In this document: positions 27,415 to 36,535 of the stretch, piece after piece
How positions within the stretch are numbered: the first letter of the stretch is position 1
Layout: each line of letters begins with the position of its first letter
Assembly (NCBI RefSeq): GCF_015476115.1
Contig: NZ_CP064295.1
Span: 986,001 to 1,050,000, forward strand
Reading direction: 5' to 3'
Source: Aegicerativicinus sediminis
GTDB lineage: Bacteria; Bacteroidota; Bacteroidia; Flavobacteriales; Flavobacteriaceae
Length of the DNA: 64,000 bases
Made by a program: the position numbers and the translations under genes
Notes under the pieces: generated by a model
Seen by the model: only the letters and a program-made list of their open reading frames with translations
Database searches by the model: none
Told to the model about the DNA's origin: nothing

Positions 27415-28026
27415 CTAAATTTTTGAAAATACATAAAACATTTCCGAAGCAATCTGTAAGGAACGTTCATCATACTTCATTGCTTCTTCAGGTGCGCCAT
27501 CAAATGCCTTTGGATCTTCATACCTTACAGCTATTCTCTGTTCGGTACCGGGAATAAATGGACAATTTTCATCTGCATGTGAGCAGGTCATCACTGCTGC
27601 AAATTGATCAGAATCATTAGCAGGATCACTAAAAACCTTCGAAAATGCTATTATCGGCTGTGCTCCTTCAGAATGATAAACACTGTAAATCGGATTTTCT
27701 TCGCCCTCTTTTTTAACCCTAAAGCCACTTCTTTTAATAGATTCCACTGCACGTTCATTAAAGGCGGTTACTTCAACTCCACCAGAATAACAATTTGTGG
27801 GAATTCCATAATAATCGGCGGCGGTTTGAGCCCAAATCTGAGAAAATTGACTTCGTCGAGAATTGTGGGTACAAATAAAGTTAAGGTTGACCTCTTTCTG
27901 ATTTTTCAACTTAGCTTTCACATAATCTATAAGTGGTTTTAACACTTCCTTCCTCTCATCTGAGATTGTCATTAACTGAACCTCCTTAATTGTATTTTCT
28001 AATTCCGGATACATCGAAATCTTCAT
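27415..28026 (-). CDS. arsC: Arsenate reductase of the low-molecular-weight phosphatase type
   Basis: 203 aa. The catalytic P-loop is Cys52-Thr-His-Asn-Ser-Arg-Arg58-Ser (CX5R), with [18 protein letters not shown] giving further family context. [20 protein letters not shown] supplies Asp/Cys positions expected for the second half of the site. It would reduce As(V) to As(III), which the ACR3 protein exports. A general protein tyrosine phosphatase is possible by fold, but the operon context argues for arsenic. About 45 extra N-terminal residues are seen compared with short ArsC forms. Confidence 0.85.
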
Positions 28027-28065
28027 ATCATTTTTAAATTAATTGAAACTGTTTAGATAAGTCGA

Positions 28066-28398
28066 CTAGCAGCATTGATTCGTCGGCAGGGAGAATTGAT
28101 CGAATAAGAGATTGAATTGAGTTCTAATTTCCTCCCATTTATCCGGATTGATGCAATAATTTACCTTAGATCCTTCAATTGTTCCCTTAATTATTCCGAT
28201 ATCCTTTAACTCTCGCAAATGTTGGCTTATGGTTGCCTGCGCCAATCCCACCTCCTGTACCAAATCTCCATTTATACAAGCATCAGATTTAAGCAAATAT
28301 TGAATAATTGCCACTCGCGCAGGATGTGAAAATGCCTTGGCTGCTAAGGCTATTTCGTTTTGAACATCGGTGAATAATTCTGTTTTTGTAACTCCCAT
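28066..28398 (-). CDS. arsR: ArsR-family metalloregulator
   Basis: 110 aa with a winged helix-turn-helix: AKAFSHPARVAIIQYLLKSD, then LAQATISQHLRELKDIGIIKG as recognition helix and wing. Possible As(III) ligands are Cys41 in DACINGDLV and the terminal Cys-Cys; the exact set is uncertain. It should repress its own operon and release DNA when arsenite binds. It lies 39 bp upstream of arsC in the same direction, and a dyad sits just in front of it. Confidence 0.88.
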   Translation of the reverse strand: MGVTKTELFTDVQNEIALAAKAFSHPARVAIIQYLLKSDACINGDLVQEVGLAQATISQHLRELKDIGIIKGTIEGSKVNYCINPDKWEEIRTQFNLLFDQFSLPTNQCC

Positions 28399-28417
28399 AT
28401 CAAAACCTTATTAGGAC

Positions 28418-28433
28418 ATTGCAATATTACGAT
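28418..28433 (-). promoter_or_regulatory. Candidate ArsR operator
   Basis: ATTGCAATATTACGAT is an imperfect palindrome around AATATT (12 of 16 positions symmetric, the rest G/A or C/T exchanges). It lies 20 bp before the arsR start, overlapping where the promoter should be. ArsR/SmtB proteins commonly bind such AT-centred dyads. No complete promoter was recognised. Confidence 0.5.
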
Positions 28434-28501
28434 AGATTAGGTAATAATAGGAAAGATTTTTGCAATAAAATGGATTGAAAATTTACTCGCCTCCGAAAAG
28501 T

Positions 28502-29146
28502 TTAGTTTACCAGCTTTTCCAGGGGTTTAAGTTTTGCCAAAATTCGCGGGATATCTTCAATAGCAACTTTTATTCTTCGATCTAATACCTCTGTGTTTTG
28601 GAGATTTACGACGGTTCCTGCCATACACACCATTAAAATTCCTTTGCCACTTCCAATTTCAGAATAGTCTATATCGGTTCCTATGATTGCATTCCCTCCC
28701 ATTTCATAAGCGGCGGATCTTAATTGAGCCAAACAAAGATCTTCCCCCTTTTTAAGTTTTGTATTATGTCTACCAGAAGAAACTCCGAATGCATCCGTAA
28801 TTGAAGATGTCAATTCCGTTAAAACACCGGTACCCATTGTTGATTGCCCGGTTACAATACCAATAGTTTTATAGTCCCATCCATGAGGAGAATGGGCAGT
28901 AACTACAGGAATTTGGAAAATAGCCTTATCCAATTGTTTACGGTAGTGCGCAATCTCAGTCTTCATTTTCTCTGAAGATTCTGATAACAGGTCATTACCA
29001 CATTTCTGGCAATATCCACCTATATCGTTCTGTCTATATACTTGAATAATCTTGTTTTCCTGTTTAGTAAGCAACCTATTGTTAGAAAGAATTCCGGATT
29101 TAATCGGAACGGTGCAATTGGGGCAATACAAATCTGATTCGGCCAT
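28502..29146 (-). CDS. Zinc-ribbon protein with YbjQ-type (DUF74) heavy-metal-binding domain
   Basis: 214 aa. The N-terminal part has two CxxC pairs (CPNC near 8-11, CQKC near 46-49), which make a zinc ribbon. The second half matches YbjQ: GIVTGQSTMGTGVLTELTSS, LAQLRSAAYEMGGNAIIGTD, and a final beta-strand MAGTVV. YbjQ proteins form pentamers of unknown function, sometimes linked to metals. Position next to arsR may be by chance; the gene is 103 bp upstream and would need its own promoter. No signal peptide. Confidence 0.7.
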   Translation of the reverse strand: MAESDLYCPNCTVPIKSGILSNNRLLTKQENKIIQVYRQNDIGGYCQKCGNDLLSESSEKMKTEIAHYRKQLDKAIFQIPVVTAHSPHGWDYKTIGIVTGQSTMGTGVLTELTSSITDAFGVSSGRHNTKLKKGEDLCLAQLRSAAYEMGGNAIIGTDIDYSEIGSGKGILMVCMAGTVVNLQNTEVLDRRIKVAIEDIPRILAKLKPLEKLVN

Positions 29147-29461
29147 ATCGGGATATTAAAATTCCCACTTAAAATACAAAATCTAACGATGTTGTGCTAA
29201 ATAATATCCTTTTCGGCATTTCTGAATGAACATAATAACTCCACTATTATGAAAAGGCTTGTAGAGTGTTGGCCCATAAAACCATTTGTATCAATTAAAA
29301 TGAAATAAAATTTTTAGGTATCTAAAAATAATCGCTTTTACCGCATGGCAAAGTTTGCTTGTCAGTAAGGAAATTTTTTCTTAGTTTTTTATTTGGTGCT
29401 TTTTCATTTTCAAAGCGAAAAGTATTCAAAAAATCTAAACTATTTTTGTCCAAAGAGACTT
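29147..29461. other. Intergenic region between divergent genes
   Basis: About 315 bp, AT-rich. No hairpin, repeat or complete promoter was recognised. A TTTG at 29354-29357 is followed only by a poor TAGTTTTT, with too long a spacer. Confidence 0.4.
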
Positions 29462-30025
29462 TTGTTGAGCATTCTTAAAACCATAAGAGAACAAGAAGGG
29501 TATACCCAATCCGATTTAGCCACTAAAACAGGCTTGTCTTTACGTACTATTCAGCGACTAGAAAATACAAATAAAGTACCTAAAGGCTATACCTTAACCG
29601 CTCTAGCGGAAGAATTTAAGATGGAGCCTTCGGCCCTACAAGCTAAATATCTAAATACAAAACGTTCTCGGGATTCTGAAATTTCAACAATAAGAATGAT
29701 TAATTTGTCGGTTTTGTCCTTTCTTGGGATTCCATTTGGGAATCTAATTTTCCCAATTATAATATGGAGGGACAACCGAGATTCACAATTAGTAGATGAG
29801 GTAGGGCGACGGATTGTTAATTTTCAAATTTTGTTTACATTATGCCTATCTGTATTACTCATCTTAATACCATTTACCGTTTCAAGACTATTGCCAGGTA
29901 TTCCCCTGATATTGATTTTGGCGCTTCTTGCCTACCTTTTTAATATCATTGTAATCATTCGTACTGCCATAAAGATCCAACAACAGGACTTTGATTTTTT
30001 AAACCTTCCTTTTAGACTTATTTAG
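29462..30025 (+). CDS. XRE-type HTH regulator with a membrane (DUF4870-like) domain
   Basis: About 188 aa from the TTG at 29462; the frame continues upstream to a TTG at 29393, but those residues look non-conserved. LLSILKTIREQEGYTQSDLA opens the helix-turn-helix, continued by TKTGLSLRTIQRLEN. The C-terminal half has three or four membrane helices with FGNLIFPIIIWRD, the signature of DUF4870. Such fusions are common small regulators in Bacteroidota, thought to sense membrane state. Start codon uncertain. Confidence 0.7.
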   Translation: MLSILKTIREQEGYTQSDLATKTGLSLRTIQRLENTNKVPKGYTLTALAEEFKMEPSALQAKYLNTKRSRDSEISTIRMINLSVLSFLGIPFGNLIFPIIIWRDNRDSQLVDEVGRRIVNFQILFTLCLSVLLILIPFTVSRLLPGIPLILILALLAYLFNIIVIIRTAIKIQQQDFDFLNLPFRLI

Positions 30026-30144
30026 ACCTGAAACTAAAATTGTCGCAAAAATGGCGGCATGAAAACCCGCTCTATTACTGAGATTCCTTATTTCTTTGCT
30101 TCATGAAAATTTATTAAAAATTTATTCAAAAATTTTAACTAATC

Positions 30145-31140
30145 ATGAAAAAAATTATCGGTTACAGCGTATTAGGCCTTTTAGGTATTGTATTAATTCT
30201 TGGTATTTATGGCATCAGAAAATTCAATAACACCTATTTCAAAGAACGTCCTGCGTATTTAGAACTCAGTCATGAATCTCAACCCATGGATTTTAAATGG
30301 ACTCATTCAAAAGTGGATGAAGGACACATCGAATATCAGACAGGTCTTTTAATACCAGTGCAAATCGACAGTCTTGAACACAATCTTTATATGCAATTTG
30401 ATACAGGTGCACCCGATTCCTTCTTCTATGAAAAAGATCTTATTTCATTAAGAAAAATGGGTTATGATATTAAGGAGGTTAGTAAGGATGGAATTCGTTT
30501 TGTTGAATCCCTAAATTTAAATTTGGGAGGTAAACCGGTTAACTTATCAATGGTTAAAATTTACCCGAACTATGGGAATACTTTTTCGGCTGAATTTGAC
30601 CCAAAAATCAATATCACCATTGGTACCATTGGCAGTGATATCCTAGTAGACCGGATTACGTCAATTGATTTTAAGAATCAAACCATACAGTTTTTTGAAG
30701 AGCGGCCAGAATGGATGCAGCAACTCAATGGATTCAAAACTTTCGATTTTCCGGGACGCCGTGTGATGCTACCCGCTACTGTTGATGGAAAACAGTACGA
30801 GTTTTTGTATGACTCAGGATGTTCGGCCTTTGGTTTAATTACTACCAAACAACGTTTTAAAAAATATACAGAGGTATCTACTCCAGTAGAAAGTTTTGGG
30901 GCTAAAAGTTGGGAGGATAAAATTTACATTAACAGTAAGTCCAGCAACTACCCACTTACCATTGGAGGAACTAAATTAACTATGAAGCGCGTTTCATGTG
31001 TTGATATGTATGCCTTCCTACAGCCTTTGGTAACCCCATTTACCCGAATTGGTGGCTGGATGGGCAACCAAGCTATAAATGAGAGTCACCTCATTCTTGA
31101 CACAAAATCCAAGGAATTTTTGATCTTGACCACAATTTAG
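30145..31140 (+). CDS. Membrane-anchored retropepsin-like aspartic protease homologue (copy 1)
   Basis: 331 aa. An N-terminal membrane helix or signal anchor covers residues about 5-25. Two aspartyl motifs occur: MQFDTGAPDSFFY near residue 89 and FLYDSGCSAFGL near 220. Both have D-T/S-G followed by a hydrophobic strand, as expected for a two-lobed pepsin-like fold. GTIGSDILVD between them matches the hydrophobic-hydrophobic-Gly strand of the lobes. A paralogue with the same layout is encoded on the opposite strand at 33309. No function is known for this group; a periplasmic protease role is an inference. Confidence 0.6.
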   Translation: MKKIIGYSVLGLLGIVLILGIYGIRKFNNTYFKERPAYLELSHESQPMDFKWTHSKVDEGHIEYQTGLLIPVQIDSLEHNLYMQFDTGAPDSFFYEKDLISLRKMGYDIKEVSKDGIRFVESLNLNLGGKPVNLSMVKIYPNYGNTFSAEFDPKINITIGTIGSDILVDRITSIDFKNQTIQFFEERPEWMQQLNGFKTFDFPGRRVMLPATVDGKQYEFLYDSGCSAFGLITTKQRFKKYTEVSTPVESFGAKSWEDKIYINSKSSNYPLTIGGTKLTMKRVSCVDMYAFLQPLVTPFTRIGGWMGNQAINESHLILDTKSKEFLILTTI

Positions 31141-31164
31141 ACGATTGATTTGATTGTAACCGAG

Positions 31165-31212
31165 CCAGATGCCTGAACCGTTCATAATTTGATATGAATA
31201 TCAGGTGTCTGG
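31165..31212. terminator. Nested hairpin after the protease-like gene
   Basis: Outer stem CCAGATGCCTGA (31165-31176) against TCAGGTGTCTGG (31201-31212), 10 of 12 paired plus wobble. Inside it is TTCATA (31181-31186) against TATGAA (31193-31198). There is no T-run, so a terminator role is uncertain. Confidence 0.35.
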
Positions 31213-31219
31213 TAATTGG

Positions 31220-31380
31220 TTAAAAGACACATTGAGAGATTTAAAGCAATATGGGAATTTTAATAAACGCCACGGTTTTCATAAAATGTTTAACAATGGC
31301 AACGCTATGACTAATGGCAAACAGTTTATCCAATTCGCGCGATAGAAACGCCTAACCAAGGTGGTGGTATTGAAGTTTAA
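31220..31380 (+). pseudogene. Possible eroded coding fragment
   Basis: A protein-like frame from 31220 reads LKDTLRDLKQYGNFNKRHGF and ends with NGKQFIQFAR at a TAG (31343). Shifting frame at that point gives ETPNQGGGIEV and a TAA at 31378. The joined text looks like a short protein tail broken by one frameshift. The family is not recognised and no start codon context is clear. Could be chance in AT-rich DNA. Confidence 0.3.
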
Positions 31381-31438
31381 TTACCAACAACACAAACCGG
31401 GAACTAGCTATAGTCTATTTTTTCATGAGTAATTATTT

Positions 31439-32341
31439 CTAATTAACGGAAAAATCTAATTCATCTTCGTACTTTTTTAATTCATCAATTAAATAGTATC
31501 GATGCGTATTTCCAGTTAAAACCACAATCCTTTTATTTGGATGGCGTTTAATTTGTTTTAAGATGTTTGCCGTCATTGCTTTATTTCTGATATCCCAATA
31601 TTCCATATGTAGAGGCGCAAAATCTTTATAGTCTGCTAACTCTGGTCTTGCTTTTACAATTTCTGGTACACGCTTGTAAATATAAAATTGTCTTTCCCTT
31701 ATAATGCTATCCGTCTTAGCATTATTGAGATCATAAACGACTTTTGCATTCGGGCTAATTTTATAATACTCTTTATTTATCGCTGCGAACGTATCCATAA
31801 GCTCCAAATGGCTACCAGTCAGAAGATCTTGTCGGTAGGAATTGTATACTGCCCCAATCATTTTTGAAGATGTGGAAAGGTAATTATGTTTTAGATGAAA
31901 AGCATCCCTTTCTTCCCATTCGTAGCCCAAAACCATAGCTTGAGGGTGTTTGTCTAGATATTTAAGAGAAACAAAACTTTCTACCTTATTCCCTTTTTTA
32001 AAAGAACTCATAAGTTGGTTAAAGAAATCCGTTCTATTCACCATACGTTCCACGGTATTGGTATCACTTTCATATAAAATGACATCCGGGGAAATACTTT
32101 TTATGTAATTGTAGATGTCATCTCTTTTAATATTGTCCGTTTCAAAGTGAACACAACCAACGACATATACTTCAGTTTCCTTACTTAAGGAAATGTTTGT
32201 GTTTCTGTTTTCCTTGGGTTGTTCATGATCTATATAAGTGTTTAGATCAATATTGTATTTAATGATTCCTCCTACACAAATTAAAAGTGTGAGGAGCAAC
32301 CATACTACTAGAATGTATTTTAGGTATTTTAATAATTTCAT
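31439..32341 (-). CDS. Membrane-anchored TraB/ChaN-like protein of unknown function
   Basis: 300 aa. One N-terminal membrane helix, residues about 8-28, then a soluble domain. VYVVGCVHFETDNIKRDDIY and ISPDVILYESD recall the TraB/PrgY and DUF5694-type fold, in which an H-x-E pattern and a later GNTHRYYLIDEL supply conserved His residues. The match is only at motif level. It is the last gene on the low-coordinate side of the cassette-like array, 34 bp downstream of the DUF6090 gene with no palindrome between, so the two may move as a pair. Function unknown. Confidence 0.5.
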   Translation of the reverse strand: MKLLKYLKYILVVWLLLTLLICVGGIIKYNIDLNTYIDHEQPKENRNTNISLSKETEVYVVGCVHFETDNIKRDDIYNYIKSISPDVILYESDTNTVERMVNRTDFFNQLMSSFKKGNKVESFVSLKYLDKHPQAMVLGYEWEERDAFHLKHNYLSTSSKMIGAVYNSYRQDLLTGSHLELMDTFAAINKEYYKISPNAKVVYDLNNAKTDSIIRERQFYIYKRVPEIVKARPELADYKDFAPLHMEYWDIRNKAMTANILKQIKRHPNKRIVVLTGNTHRYYLIDELKKYEDELDFSVN

Positions 32342-32375
32342 TTTATAGGTTTTACCTGTATCGGTTATGCTTTCG

Positions 32376-33146
32376 CTATTTTCTTAATTCAGCATTAATT
32401 TTTTCAATCATTTCAGATGCAATTCTCTTTTGATATTTCATTCTTTCTAATATCACCTTCATTTCTTTATGGCTATTCCAAGCATAATTCCTAAAACGCG
32501 ATGACTTAATATATTCTTTAATTATATGTGAATATTCCTTTTTTTTATTTGTTACCGTTTCGAGTTTTGTGTTTTTTTCAAGGTCAATAAAATCGACATT
32601 ATCATACCATTCTTTGAAAGTTTCAGGGCCAAATACTCTGTTTTTAGTTTCTTTATCCCATTCTAAATATTCTAACCAAGTATTGTATTCTCTCGTGTAA
32701 TAATCATTAATATCGAGAAATATGTTGCTGAAAAATTTACTTTCTAAGAAACCGCTATTTGTGAGTTTTGAAAAGGTTGAATTATTGATTTTATAGATTC
32801 TTACGGAATGAAATGAAATATCGATGGATTTAAGAATTGAATCTACAGTTAACTTATTGAAGATATCACCATTAAATAAACTTTCGTGTATAGATAATGA
32901 GTTTTGTAACCTTTTAATCCCAGATCGAAACGTTATAGTGTCTGCAGCTAAATCCTTCTTAATGTTTTTTAAATGGGTTTTTGAGAGATTATAGGTATTC
33001 CTATTTTCGTTCCAGGTATTAATCTGTAATGCAATCAAGATTCCAATAACGACAAGAACAATCTCTCCGATTACATATTTAAAATACTTCCCGGTTTTAT
33101 TTTCCATAAGCAAGTTTTGTCGAATTTTTCTGAAGAATTTTATCAT
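32376..33146 (-). CDS. DUF6090-type membrane protein
   Basis: 256 aa. The N-terminus IKFFRKIRQNLLMENKTGKY followed by the helix IGEIVLVVIGILIALQINTW and NENR is diagnostic of the DUF6090 proteins so common in Flavobacteriia. The rest is charged, helical and rich in Lys and Glu. The function of the family is unknown. The start codon lies 25 bp from palindrome A (33172-33299), so the gene sits where a cassette gene would. Confidence 0.8.
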   Translation of the reverse strand: MIKFFRKIRQNLLMENKTGKYFKYVIGEIVLVVIGILIALQINTWNENRNTYNLSKTHLKNIKKDLAADTITFRSGIKRLQNSLSIHESLFNGDIFNKLTVDSILKSIDISFHSVRIYKINNSTFSKLTNSGFLESKFFSNIFLDINDYYTREYNTWLEYLEWDKETKNRVFGPETFKEWYDNVDFIDLEKNTKLETVTNKKKEYSHIIKEYIKSSRFRNYAWNSHKEMKVILERMKYQKRIASEMIEKINAELRK

Positions 33147-33171
33147 TAGTTAGTGGTTGGAGATAATGAAG

Positions 33172-33299
33172 CACAACGTTGAGGCTATGAGTAGTTGCGT
33201 GGTTTAGCGGTTAACTTAGCAAATACATACCAAACTGAAAATCCATGAGGGTTTTCAGAAGTGGGCGAGAACAAGCAATTACTAATAGCCAGTGTTGTG
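33172..33299 (-). repeat. Palindromic site A (attC-like)
   Basis: Left arm 33172-33198 and right arm 33275-33299 are imperfect complements. CACAAC pairs with GTTGTG, GGCTAT with ATAGCC, AGTA with TACT, and TTGC with GCAA. Between CACAAC and GGCTAT the left arm has 5 unpaired bases, the right arm 3. A second hairpin lies inside (CTGAAAA at 33235-33241 with TTTTCAG at 33252-33258). The site ends 9 bp from the stop codon of the gene at 33309. Confidence 0.6.
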
Positions 33300-33308
33300 G
33301 GGTTGTTT

Positions 33309-34295
33309 TTATTTTAATCCAAATTTTTTGTTTTTAAAGTCTATAATAATTGTACTATCCCAAAATAACGCATTCCCTGTCATCCCATCAGTACTTTCAT
33401 CTATACCATAACCTGTATGATTTTCATAGGCTTCTACATTAGCAAATTTTCTCCCTGCGATTTCGAAGGTGTCTGTTATTATTCTACTGTGCACGGTATG
33501 TTTTTTGCCCCAGGAGTTAATTTCTAAACTATCAATAATAGGGTTTGTACTAAATTTATTAATGTTTTCAGAGGTGGCAATAATTGGAAACAAGCTAGAA
33601 CCATTATCAAATATAATTTTATACTCGTTTGAATTCATTTTTAATGGTAAAACCGGTCTACCATTGCTATTGATCTCAATATCTATCAATCCATCTTTAT
33701 ATCTTCTTGGTATTTCATCAGTAATGGCAAATTTTAGATTGGGATAATCAATGATCAAAACTTTATCCTTAAATATATCAGCTCCTATAGTACCCAAGTG
33801 AATAGTATCTCCAGCAATTACACTTTCTTCTGATGCTGCTCTGTTTAGATTAGTCATCATAGAGGCTCTTTCATTAGATATGGTATAATCACCAAATTTT
33901 ATTTTTGCATTCTTAAATACTTTTTTGTCGGAAGCCAACTTATTAATAGGAAATTTCATTTGGCTTACCTGCTCTGATAGTTTTTTATTTTGAAAATAAA
34001 ACGAACTGAGCGGATTCTCATAAATCATAGTTCTATTGGATCCTGTATCAAATTGGAAAGTTAGGTTATTGTCAATTCCCACCATCCTGCAAGGGATAAA
34101 CATTGCAGTTCTCTCAAAGTATTTTCCGTTGATGGTACGATTGGTCCATATAAAATCTGCCCAATTAATTTCTGTTTCAACTGGTATTTCAATTTTCCAA
34201 TCTCCCAAACTTGATTTATAAGCATAATAGGCATAAAGACTGAATAGGATGTATACAGTTATGACTGCAATTAGAATCTTATATCTTTTTTTCAT
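33309..34295 (-). CDS. Retropepsin-like aspartic protease homologue (copy 2)
   Basis: 328 aa, same layout as the product of 30145. An N-terminal helix covers residues about 7-25. FQFDTGSNRTMIYENPLSSF near residue 88 is the first aspartyl motif. HLGTIGADIFKDKVLIIDYP is the linker strand, with ITDEIP following. The second motif is IIFDNGSSLFPIIA, where Asn replaces the usual Thr or Ser after Asp, so activity is less certain. The end, MTGNALFWDSTIIIDFKNKK, parallels copy 1. The gene is bracketed by palindromes A and B, each within 40 bp of its ends. Confidence 0.6.
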   Translation of the reverse strand: MKKRYKILIAVITVYILFSLYAYYAYKSSLGDWKIEIPVETEINWADFIWTNRTINGKYFERTAMFIPCRMVGIDNNLTFQFDTGSNRTMIYENPLSSFYFQNKKLSEQVSQMKFPINKLASDKKVFKNAKIKFGDYTISNERASMMTNLNRAASEESVIAGDTIHLGTIGADIFKDKVLIIDYPNLKFAITDEIPRRYKDGLIDIEINSNGRPVLPLKMNSNEYKIIFDNGSSLFPIIATSENINKFSTNPIIDSLEINSWGKKHTVHSRIITDTFEIAGRKFANVEAYENHTGYGIDESTDGMTGNALFWDSTIIIDFKNKKFGLK

Positions 34296-34331
34296 GTTAA
34301 ATTTCGGATTTTTAACTATTCGATCAATAAC

Positions 34332-34457
34332 CTACAACGGTTTGTATAACGTAGCGTTGCGTTGGTTGAAACTAAGATAGTAAAATGAGGGAACTTTGGT
34401 TGGAGAGTGGATTCCGAATGGAATTCACGAAGCAATGGGCGTTATACGGTGTTGTAG
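34332..34457 (-). repeat. Palindromic site B (attC-like)
   Basis: The clearest of the four. CTACAAC (34332-34338) pairs with GTTGTAG (34451-34457), GTATAACG with CGTTATAC, and TTGC with GCAA. The spacers between the first two blocks are GGTTT (5 nt, left) and GGT (3 nt, right). An inner hairpin GTGGATTCC-gaat-GGAATTCAC lies at 34407-34428. The site is 16 bp from the stop codon of the gene at 34474 and 36 bp from the start of the gene at 34295. Confidence 0.65.
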
Positions 34458-34473
34458 CACGTTTATTTTGTTT

Positions 34474-34914
34474 TTATATCATATGATAAGCCATGTAACT
34501 AGCAACATACAAGCCCAAGATTGCTGGAGGAACTGCTAAAGCTAGTTTTAACCATTTATTTAAATCCGAGTTTTTACTTTTCCAGGCCAGAAAAACTGTC
34601 GAAATACCAAGTAATATTGGGGGAATAATTTCAATTAATTCAGGTTTATAGCCATTTTCTAAGAAATATTCAATAAGTAAATGGACGGGCCAAGTTATGT
34701 ACATCACAACAAAGGCAATTGTTAATAATAAAGCTCCTGTTTTCGGTTTGAAAAAGTGAAACCAACTTAAAAATCCAAAAATCAAGATTGCAAATGCAAC
34801 ACTAATTAATGGATTAGCGGAATTTAAACCAGCGGAACCGGTCATATATGCGGCAAAAAGCAGATATACAAATCCGCCAAGAAACAATGAAGATATGTAG
34901 GTTAAGATTTTCAT
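34474..34914 (-). CDS. Small integral membrane protein, 146 aa
   Basis: Four hydrophobic helices, at about 5-22, 33-50, 57-80 and 92-112, with another at about 122-144. No family is recognised. It contains GFLSWFHFFKPKTGALLLTI between helices 2 and 3. It is the middle gene of the cassette-like array, with palindrome B 16 bp after its stop and palindrome C 10 bp before its start. There is therefore almost no room for its own promoter; expression would need an upstream one. Confidence 0.6.
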   Translation of the reverse strand: MKILTYISSLFLGGFVYLLFAAYMTGSAGLNSANPLISVAFAILIFGFLSWFHFFKPKTGALLLTIAFVVMYITWPVHLLIEYFLENGYKPELIEIIPPILLGISTVFLAWKSKNSDLNKWLKLALAVPPAILGLYVASYMAYHMI

Positions 34915-34924
34915 TTTTTAATGT

Positions 34925-35058
34925 GCTACAACGGTTAGGCTATGATTCCGTTACGAGGAAAATCAGAATGATTTTCAGAGTAGGAATCAAGCCGGTTAAA
35001 GTTAATGGTTTTTGGTGTAGCACTTTGCAAGCAATGAATTATAGCCAGTGTTGGCAGC
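34925..35058 (-). repeat. Palindromic site C (attC-like)
   Basis: Left arm GCTACAACGGTTAGGCTATG starting at 34925, right arm GCAATGAATTATAGCCAGTG starting at 35031 and continuing TTGGCAGC. CAAC pairs with GTTG and GGCTAT with ATAGCC, with spacers GGTTA (5) and AGT (3). Inside are GATTCC (34944) with GGAATC (34983), and GAAAATCA-gaa-TGATTTTC at 34958-34976. The site is 11 bp from the stop codon of the gene at 35070. Confidence 0.6.
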
Positions 35059-35069
35059 AGTTAATTTTT

Positions 35070-35321
35070 TCAGTCCATATAATTATTGGTCATTTTCTTG
35101 AAGTATGGTTTAAGAATATTTCTCAAAACAATGACAACGATAATAATAGTCCAAACCTTAATCATTCCAGTTTGGCTTATATTTTCATCTTTCATTCCAT
35201 TTAGGAAATATAAAATTGTAATTATGCCTACGACAATTGCTAATAGTACGGCAATTCCATAAATAAATTGGATTAGCTTCCAAACTGACCAATAAAGAAC
35301 TTCTTTATCTAATTTGTCCAA
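35070..35321 (-). CDS. Small membrane protein, 83 aa
   Basis: Two hydrophobic helices, residues about 11-36 (LIQFIYGIAVLLAIVVGIIT) and about 52-68 (VWTIIIVVIVLRNIL), with a short charged N-terminus (MDKLDKEV). No family is recognised. It is bracketed by palindromes C (11 bp after the stop) and D (21 bp before the start). It is the first gene of the array on the tRNA side. Confidence 0.6.
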   Translation of the reverse strand: MDKLDKEVLYWSVWKLIQFIYGIAVLLAIVVGIITILYFLNGMKDENISQTGMIKVWTIIIVVIVLRNILKPYFKKMTNNYMD

Positions 35322-35342
35322 TTTTATTTTGTTTTAATTGAT

Positions 35343-35546
35343 GCCAACGTATGGATAAACGCACAATTGCGTTTATTTCTTTTATGTCGTCAAGACAAAT
35401 CTAATGGATTTAGGATTGATTTGAAACTGGAAGTTGCCATTTGTAGAATGGTATAGTGTTTAAACTAAATGTGGCATAAAATTTTCCAATCGTACAATTA
35501 TAAAAAAGGGATTAGCGCGAACAGCAATTAACTTATACCAAGTTGC
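35343..35546 (-). repeat. Palindromic site D, longer and more diverged
   Basis: Left arm GCCAACGTATGGATAAACGC starting at 35343, then ACAATTGC. Right arm GCAATTAACTTATACCAAGT starting at 35524, then TGC. The ends, TGG/CCA, ATAA/TTAT and AATTGC/GCAATT, can pair. The interior is about 150 bp, with extra ATGCCA-like fragments (GTTGCCAT near 35433, GTGGCAT near 35471), so it may be two fused or decayed sites. It borders the array on the tRNA side. Confidence 0.45.
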
Positions 35547-35609
35547 TTTTTTAAGAGGAGTCAAAAAAAATAAAAAAACAAGCAGGAATGGGCAAATAAT
35601 GTTCCAAAT

Positions 35610-35654
35610 AATAAATAAAAAACCTTAACATATTGCATTTCAATAGTTAAGGTT
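35610..35654 (-). terminator. Intrinsic terminator of tRNA-Ala
   Basis: On the minus strand AACCTTAAC (complement of 35646-35654) and GTTAAGGTT (complement of 35621-35629) form a 9-bp stem with a 16-nt loop, followed by a T-rich run. It lies 10 bp beyond the tRNA 3' end and separates the tRNA from the cassette-like array. Confidence 0.8.
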
Positions 35655-35663
35655 TCATTTATG

Positions 35664-35737
35664 TGGAGCATATCGGAGTCGAACCGATGACCTCTACGCT
35701 GCCAGCGTAGCGCTCTAGCCAGCTGAGCTAATGCCCC
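35664..35737 (-). tRNA. tRNA-Ala (anticodon GGC)
   Basis: 74 nt. Acceptor stem GGGGCAT/ATGCTCC with one G-U pair and discriminator A73. D-arm TAGCTCAGCTGGCTAGAGC. Anticodon arm CTACG-CTGGCAG-CGTAG with GGC at the anticodon. T-arm with GGTTCGACTCC. CCA is not encoded. Its first base directly follows the stop codon of the universal stress protein gene, and a strong terminator follows. Confidence 0.97.
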
Positions 35738-36535
35738 TTATCGCAATCCACTCAACACCAAAACCGGCATTGATGAGGAATGAAAATCCTTTTTAAGGAT
35801 GGTATTCTTTTCCCAAAGTTTAGTAAAGAATCCTCTTTTCCTCCTTACCACACACAATAGGTCGGGTTGAATCTCTCTATGATACTCAAGTACCGCCTGA
35901 AATGTGGTAGGAATTTCAACCTTTGTAGTGTCAGAAACCATTGCCTTCCAATCATCATTTAGGTCAAAATCTCCCTCTTCATAGTAGGACGTTTTTACCA
36001 ATAACATGGACACTACCGCGCTAAACTTTTTCTGAATCTGTTGAAGCGGAGTAAGCACACCTTCTTTGGTAATGGTTGCCCTTTTCAAGGCCACTAAAAT
36101 AGTATTAATAGGTTTAAATGTAAAGTTTTCAGGAACAATTAATAATGGTATATCTGTTTGCTTTACAATTTTTCCTGAGGTTGGTCCGAGGTATAGATGT
36201 TCCTTTACAGAATTGGTGCGAGGTTCTAAAATCATAAGATCAATCTCCCACGTTTTGCAGATTAATTCTAAGGTATCAACCAGTTTTCCTTTAAAGGATT
36301 TTATAATAATGTCTACCCCTTTATTGTCGACCTTGGCAACATGTTCTTTTAGAAAGTTTAGACTCTCGCGTTCAAGTATTGGCCCGACCTTTTTTATGGT
36401 ACCGGCTTTGGTGTAAACATTATATATTTGCACCACATAGACCTTGGCTCCAAACATAGCAGCAAAATCCACTGCATACTGTAAATGATTTACTGCATTT
36501 TTTGATGAACCAACCGGAACTAAAATACTTTTCAT
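35738..36535 (-). CDS. Universal stress protein (UspA family)
   Basis: 265 aa with the first Usp domain at residues about 1-140 (MKSILVPVGSSKNAVNHLQY, then DLMILEPRTNSVKEHLYLGP and TSGKIVKQTDIPLLIVPENF). A shorter, degenerate second domain (NTILVALKRATITKEGVLTP) runs to the end. The G-2X-G-9X-G-type ATP site is recognisable only in part, in the first domain (LGPTSGKIVKQT). It is cytoplasmic and probably induced by stress. The TAA stop is followed without a gap by tRNA-Ala, so one transcript may carry both. Confidence 0.8.
   Translation of the reverse strand: MKSILVPVGSSKNAVNHLQYAVDFAAMFGAKVYVVQIYNVYTKAGTIKKVGPILERESLNFLKEHVAKVDNKGVDIIIKSFKGKLVDTLELICKTWEIDLMILEPRTNSVKEHLYLGPTSGKIVKQTDIPLLIVPENFTFKPINTILVALKRATITKEGVLTPLQQIQKKFSAVVSMLLVKTSYYEEGDFDLNDDWKAMVSDTTKVEIPTTFQAVLEYHREIQPDLLCVVRRKRGFFTKLWEKNTILKKDFHSSSMPVLVLSGLR

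Follow-up and report, generated by a model that had tools for sequence, protein, structure and literature searches.

What are the long palindromes that separate five genes of one strand in a 64-kb stretch of the Aegicerativicinus sediminis genome, and what kind of element do they make with these genes? The window, as we call the whole stretch analysed, is G000:C1:986001-1050000, G000 being the single-contig 4.09-Mb genome of this organism (G and L numbers designate the genomes and loci compared). The five minus-strand genes are bounded by an aspartyl-protease-like gene (30145-31140, plus strand) and by an alanine transfer RNA gene (tRNA-Ala, minus strand, Table 1). Hairpins A, B and C separate the genes of this compact array and lie close to their stop and start codons, as the initial annotation had described when it proposed an integron-like or parallel cassette system. 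We conclude with considerable confidence that the region is the decayed form of a once complete platform of a Bacteroidota integron-like cassette system, whose tyrosine recombinase would lack the I2 helix of the integron integrases (IntI).

A first search with a 26-base pattern found arrays in 14 of 40 relatives, while the reversed control pattern gave 0 matches. With a covariance model from 42 sites, R1, exactly three sites are found across the window, A, B and C (E 2e-17 to 4e-7), and the next-best match when 28000-36000 is scanned without a filter, at 12 bits, is the opposite strand of site A. Three of the four palindromes first described, A to D, are hairpins of this kind; the reading of D as a recombination hairpin (attC) was dropped, as the unfiltered scan gave no match above ~6 bits there, and D is instead an attI-like site. 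Among the 42 related sites, compensatory changes are present in 9 of the 13 helix pairs and 98 cells are altered on both sides, compared to 9-23 in slid controls; paired cells reach 96.7% in the alignment, with a covariation score of 0.494 against 0.03-0.07 with a slid partner. The hairpins are not chance, because the compensatory changes exceed those of the slid controls.

The hairpin apex varies in length and sequence, and sites A, B and C, read on the minus strand, follow the scheme YAAC-A(A/C)(C/T)G-core ... core'-spacer-CGTT. These imperfect palindromes have AAC/GTT ends and depart from the R''/R' consensus of integron attC sites, RYYYAAC/GTTRRRY: only 15 of 228 R' boxes fit GTTRRRY, and 224 of 228 fit GTTR. 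Rfam gave no match besides tRNA.

In an integron, cassettes are circles opened at G^TT, so that whatever bases follow GTT are part of the next cassette and pair with that cassette's own R''. The window shows this arrangement: ..CCG^TTGTAGCAC is the end of site C, and GTGCTACAAC the start of site B across the gene of cassette 2; the start of cassette 2, TTGTAGCAC, matches GTGCTACAA at its own R''. In the arrays found by R1, consecutive sites compared across the gene match at 6/6 bases in 187 of 228 pairs (mean 5.49), whereas comparison within a site gives 6/6 in 15 of 275 (mean 2.51), comparison with the following site 3 of 228 (mean 2.14) and shuffled pairs a mean of 2.20; 2 of the 6 compared positions fall inside R1, which is equally true for the controls. 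The same contrast was obtained with an independent regular-expression finder (70/108 vs 7/125), and at loci outside the set from which R1 was built 35 of 40 pairs match at 6/6. The arrays scanned have their sites on one strand, and an open reading frame of at least 60 residues lies on the site strand in 169 of 200 cassettes and on the other strand in 28 of 200. These patterns mark the complementarity as the trace expected if cassettes recombine as circles at (C)G^TT, and the palindromes as the recombination sites of such a cassette system. Hairpins acting as structural RNA or as terminators, without any recombination, would likewise appear at gene ends as stable folds close behind stop codons. 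Such an explanation is hardly credible here: the complementarity runs across genes and not within sites, which refutes it for the arrays at large, and the sites stand at unrelated genes, in cassettes that are duplicated with GTT edges, and lack an Rfam match.

Whole cassettes recur as gene-plus-hairpin units with their edges at GTT. Cassette 2 has a copy, 94% identical, 2.5 Mb away in the same genome (G000:C1:3.565 Mb); the identity of the two copies starts at CGTTGTAGCAC and stops at GTGCTACAACAC, a sharp bound at GTT. In G015, many cassettes are present in multiple copies in which gene and hairpin are near-identical (79 within-genome matches, hairpin identity mostly 97-100%). One cassette of G015, a flavobacterium, is 98.6% identical to a cassette on plasmid pPP2 of Persicobacter psychrovividus (Cytophagales); its right edge falls exactly on GTTG, beyond which the sequences are unrelated. 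Site C itself had no match among phage records and one among plasmids, in Persicobacter. Across genomes and arrays the sites flank differing genes, in concordance with the cassette system initially proposed.

The two arrays of G015 (L031-L036; C1:2.225-2.265 and 2.720-2.800 Mb) are very large, with at least 88 consecutive-site cassettes over the 120 kb that were read, among them a ~430-bp cassette repeated many times, and are superintegron-like in size. Persicobacter plasmids (L101 and L102; CP012862 and NZ_AP025294) carry a 382-residue relative of the recombinase described below and a cassette array of mostly hypothetical genes.

The recombinase missing as an intact gene from the window is found elsewhere in the same genome, where the initial annotation had proposed to search for one. 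This intact platform, L061 (G000:C1:3563886-3570677), consists of a 375-residue tyrosine recombinase, an attI-like site and seven cassettes. Directly past the recombinase stop codon lies AACACCACCGGTGGTGTTATCCAATT^GTTACCACAC; the R'' of the first cassette, GTGTGGTAAC, is complementary to this attI tag, and all six testable cassette junctions match at 6/6 bases. The same layout of recombinase stop, inverted repeat, GTT and matching first R'' is also present in G001, G010 and G018, in Flavobacteriaceae S0862 (L106), Arcticiflavibacter (L108), Winogradskyella ursingii (L109) and Seonamhaeicola (L112), and at L213 and L215. A second attI subgroup reads ATATAAC-A^GTT (G015, L137, L139, L142, L143 and others). 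The attI tag matches the R'' of the first attC in most intact platforms tested (G000, G001, G010, G018, G007, G015, L106, L108, L109, L112, L137, L139, L142, L143, L147, L213, L215 and L216). In most intact platforms read, attI lies just past the stop codon of the recombinase itself; in G076, G084, G213, G197, G092 and, within the window's family, G002, recombinase and array are divergently oriented, the arrangement of ordinary integrons.

Site D of the window carries this attI layout on the minus strand (Table 1), and its tag GTTGGCA matches the R'' of site C, TGCCAAC. Just upstream on the same strand lies MATSSFKSILNPLDLS-stop, 11/15 identical (tblastn) to VATSSFEMIRNPLDL, the end of the intact G000 recombinase, and a single 100-nt DNA alignment with the intact platform spans both this relic and the attI palindrome (70% identity, E 5e-11). 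Because D is an attI preceded by a relic of the recombinase C-terminus, the window holds a decayed, formerly complete platform. The earlier suspicion of an old decayed array is thereby confirmed, and the statement that no tyrosine recombinase gene lies in the window is correct for an intact gene, this C-terminal relic being present. The pair usp-tRNA-Ala is conserved without the array in G001 (same genus) and in two further members of the family, G010 and G007, and the platform is therefore no fixed feature of the locus; the fixed loci with constant neighbours by which the initial annotation would have recognised RNA or terminator elements are not what we find.

The recombinase scores best with the NCBIfam model NF040815 (233 bits, cut-off 220). 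Its score with the integron integrase model TIGR02249 is 207 bits, with a cut-off of 265, and that alignment falls into two pieces with positions ~180-238 missing. In the same way, when the recombinase is aligned to the IntI4 structure 2a3v, the match is interrupted at a point where IntI carries ~43 extra residues. In the large majority of cassette recombinases 58 residues separate KDR from HxxR, against 66 in Xer and, without exception among those examined, 100 in IntI; these readings come from a simple motif search that fails in a few rows, which have no reading or a longer one. By these comparisons the cassette recombinase is without the IntI-specific insertion that holds the I2 helix, and it lacks the additional domain by which IntI is recognised.

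Residues matching the usual tyrosine-recombinase catalytic set are invariant. In the tree, IntI forms a branch with support 100 and the cassette recombinases one with support 93, and a joint clade of the two is not rejected (approximately unbiased test, p 0.50); the sampled Xer rows lie on a separate branch (support 99), outside the cassette-recombinase group. The typical size is ~375 residues, other members having 270-400. Many members carry an extra N-terminal domain of ~95 residues with a predicted beta-alpha pattern, for which no confident Pfam family was found (DUF5710 at E 0.006, in one member only); the domain is not essential, because members of ~280 residues are without it.

Two groups of relatives deserve mention. 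Those on a Bradyrhizobium plasmid (L105) and a Salinivibrio plasmid (L103) are I2-less and adjoin transposase genes, of the IS91 family in L105, and point to a different mobile element, possibly a linked one. The recombinases of G374 C6 (L222) and of an archaeal metagenome-assembled genome (L134) are placed weakly beside IntI in the tree without having the IntI spacing, and are candidate intermediates.

R1 sites were detected in 95 of 395 sampled Bacteroidota genomes and 61 of 171 genera, among which genomes with one weak match may include false positives. Over these 395 genomes, sites and the I2-less recombinase are shared by 60 genomes (odds ratio 7.3, p 3e-15), as opposed to 28 for sites and IntI (odds ratio 1.17, p 0.6), genome kinship being ignored in both tests. 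In the window's family, 23 of the 24 site-bearing genomes have the recombinase, and IntI over the cut-off was found in 0 of 41 genomes. A remnant of a canonical integron, that is, a cluster of attC sites lacking integrase (CALIN) in which IntI sites outlast the loss of IntI, would likewise pair genes with hairpins, use a GTT crossover and have attI, and canonical IntI occurs elsewhere in the phylum (over the cut-off in 105 of the 395 genomes). We nevertheless judge this origin very unlikely. Besides the absence of IntI from the site-bearing family and the rarity of GTTRRRY among the R' boxes, R1 is nearly blank near canonical IntI genes, with one 24-bit match (L197) and weak sites in L198, which lies in G044, a genome also having the other recombinase. 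Intact arrays are headed by that other, non-IntI recombinase with a matching attI, in agreement with the different recombinase family that the initial annotation had considered.

Host XerC/XerD could instead mobilise the cassettes through hijacked dif-like sites, which would make the adjacent recombinase a bystander. The genomes examined do contain Xer genes, and other elements are known to use Xer (PMC7790495). The position of attI directly past the recombinase gene, with a tag matching the first cassette, speaks against this explanation, as do the co-occurrence of sites and recombinase given above and the Xer genes sampled, which fall outside the cassette-recombinase group. Such a role for host Xer is thus highly improbable.

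A further alternative shares everything with the reading of a cassette platform except the folding: the palindrome would be a pair of inverted binding sites in double-stranded DNA that never folds as a single strand. Archaeal XerA, of a class of double-strand recombinase, is among the nearest solved relatives of the cassette recombinase, both by sequence and by fold. In addition, the recombinase lacks I2, a helix reported to be necessary for cassette capture, to confer single-strand recombination and to occur in no other protein (PMC7790495). We regard this double-strand alternative as a possible but doubtful one, given the strong covariation over 13 pairs, which extends beyond any core site, and the outer ends, which are unmatched within one site. 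As these ends do not match, the duplex of an integrated site is asymmetric, like that of integrons.

The cassette system that we propose would work as follows. A tyrosine recombinase without I2 would join circular cassettes to the attI-like site, each cassette consisting of one gene and a hairpin site of ~130 nt, and the crossover would fall at (C)G^TT. GTT would be followed by 6-7 bases that are part of the next cassette and pair with its own R'' once it is circular. Site structure, array order, edges, crossover position, attI, the exchange of whole cassettes within and between genomes and the decay in the window can be read from the sequences themselves. Recombination itself would account for them, the adjacent recombinase is probably the acting enzyme, to judge by its position and co-occurrence, and the conserved hairpin suggests action on a folded single strand.

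Several observations weigh against this proposal. The histories of gene and hairpin differ in four comparisons, a pattern not expected from a simple model with one crossover: window 34330-34461/L061 12752-12878, L065/L039, L042/L039 and L035/L042. In the first of these, the genes of the two cassette 2 copies are 94.5% identical and their hairpins 64.7%, random hairpins being 60% identical. Two copies in G001 have 99.7% identity in the gene and 78.6% in the hairpin, where identity is lost after the first ~22 bases; this may reflect a second crossover, or conversion, within the site. Moreover, in some genomes sites are present but no recombinase was detected, and in others a recombinase but no sites. 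The R1 scans were confined to Bacteroidota, the sample holds one genome per species, and the evidence is that of sequence.

The features of the window are collected in Table 1. The 83-residue protein of cassette 1 has no confident Pfam match, that of cassette 3 matches Asp_protease_2 at E 4e-4, under the curated cut-off, and the products of the two distal genes show DUF6090 (E 5e-8) and a weak DUF5694/ChaN similarity, respectively. No attC was found after these last two genes in the unfiltered site-model scan of 28000-36000. Proteins of the DUF6090 type, which share a conserved N-terminal MIKFFRKIRQ..., belong to a family that is very common in or near arrays (L049, L075, L037, L106, L108), and the aspartyl-protease-like gene just outside the array is similar in type to cassette 3. 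A defence role for the cassette genes was dropped, PADLOC having given 0 defence matches. G000 contains further degenerate arrays or single sites at C1:1.818-1.858 Mb, 1.0837-1.0847 Mb and 3.83-3.87 Mb; cross-cassette matches in the array at 1.84-1.86 Mb are poorer than in the intact array.

Table 1 Features of the putative decayed cassette platform, in window positions.
Feature	Positions	Strand	Basis and remarks
Recombinase C-terminus relic, MATSSFKSILNPLDLS-stop (16 codons)	35390..35448	-	tblastn and DNA alignment; remaining gene lost
attI-like insertion site (earlier 'D')	35340..35376	-	Inverted repeat ATAAACGCA..TGCGTTTAT, then CCATAC^GTTGGCATC
Cassette 1: 83-residue predicted membrane protein (35070-35321) and attC-like site C	34932..35347	-	Sequence
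attC-like hairpin C	34923..35058	-	R'' GCTGCCAAC ... R' GTTGTAGCAC; R1 78 bits, E 2e-13
Cassette 2: 146-residue membrane protein (34474-34914) and site B	34338..34931	-	6/6 cross-cassette match; 94% copy
attC-like hairpin B	34330..34461	-	R1 46 bits, E 4e-7
Cassette 3: 328-residue aspartyl-protease-like protein (33309-34295) and site A	33177..34337	-	4/6 cross match
attC-like hairpin A	33171..33302	-	R1 98 bits, E 2e-17
Distal genes: DUF6090 protein (32376-33146) and 300-residue protein (31439-32341)	31439..33146	-	Last cassette, attC missing or decayed
tRNA-Ala(GGC)	35663..35737	-	ARAGORN; conserved chromosomal neighbour bordering the platform, not part of it

To judge from its layout, the system works like an integron, yet it fails the IntI-domain and GTTRRRY criteria by which integrons are recognised. 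A survey of intI genes kept only integrases with the additional domain (PMC2426708); as this I2-bearing domain was required, loci of the present kind would go uncounted. Within Bacteroidetes, Salinibacter is the only taxon for which IntegronFinder 2.0 reported a complete integron, only In0 having been reported there earlier (PMC9024848), and the taxon-specific attC models that have been published cover no Bacteroidota (PMC8352920). No description of an I2-less cassette system was found in the open-access literature, bioRxiv and most subscription journals being outside the search. We lean slightly towards the view that this is a widespread second kind of integron in Bacteroidota, with folded hairpin cassettes and a recombinase without I2, either a survivor from before I2 or an independent invention, in which another part of the protein or a feature of the site would replace I2 and a hairpin would occasionally be exchanged apart from its gene. 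Having attI, hairpins and large arrays yet no I2, such a cassette system allows the origin of integrons to be tested directly, and its cassettes would form a large pool of mobile genes across Bacteroidota, carried on plasmids and exchanged between orders.

Compared to integrons, including sedentary chromosomal ones and CALIN, the system likewise has a recombinase gene with adjacent attI, one-orientation, mostly single-gene cassettes with a hairpin, the crossover G^TT, an R''/R' complementarity borne by the cassette and not by the integrated site, and large arrays. It differs in that the recombinase is without the 42-residue I2-bearing insertion (58 vs 100) and below the integron-integrase cut-off, that R' is GTTR with free following bases instead of GTTRRRY, that the sites share the inner motifs ATTGC/GCAAC, and that attI is, in one subgroup, a symmetric inverted repeat with GTT. 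In Treponema integrons, the integrase is transcribed towards attI, in the same direction as the cassettes (PMC3607928). Most platforms described here likewise have a recombinase codirectional with the cassettes and attI past its stop codon, but the enzyme in Treponema is IntI, and other subgroups here (G076, G084, G002, G197) are divergent. Archaeal XerA and the NF040815 family, 'site-specific tyrosine recombinase/integron integrase', provide the best NCBIfam model and are among the top fold matches, whereas the recombinase here heads cassette arrays and often has the extra N-terminal domain of ~95 residues. The Xer dimer-resolution recombinases, finally, form a separate branch (support 99), and their spacing of 66 residues contrasts with the 58 of the cassette recombinases.

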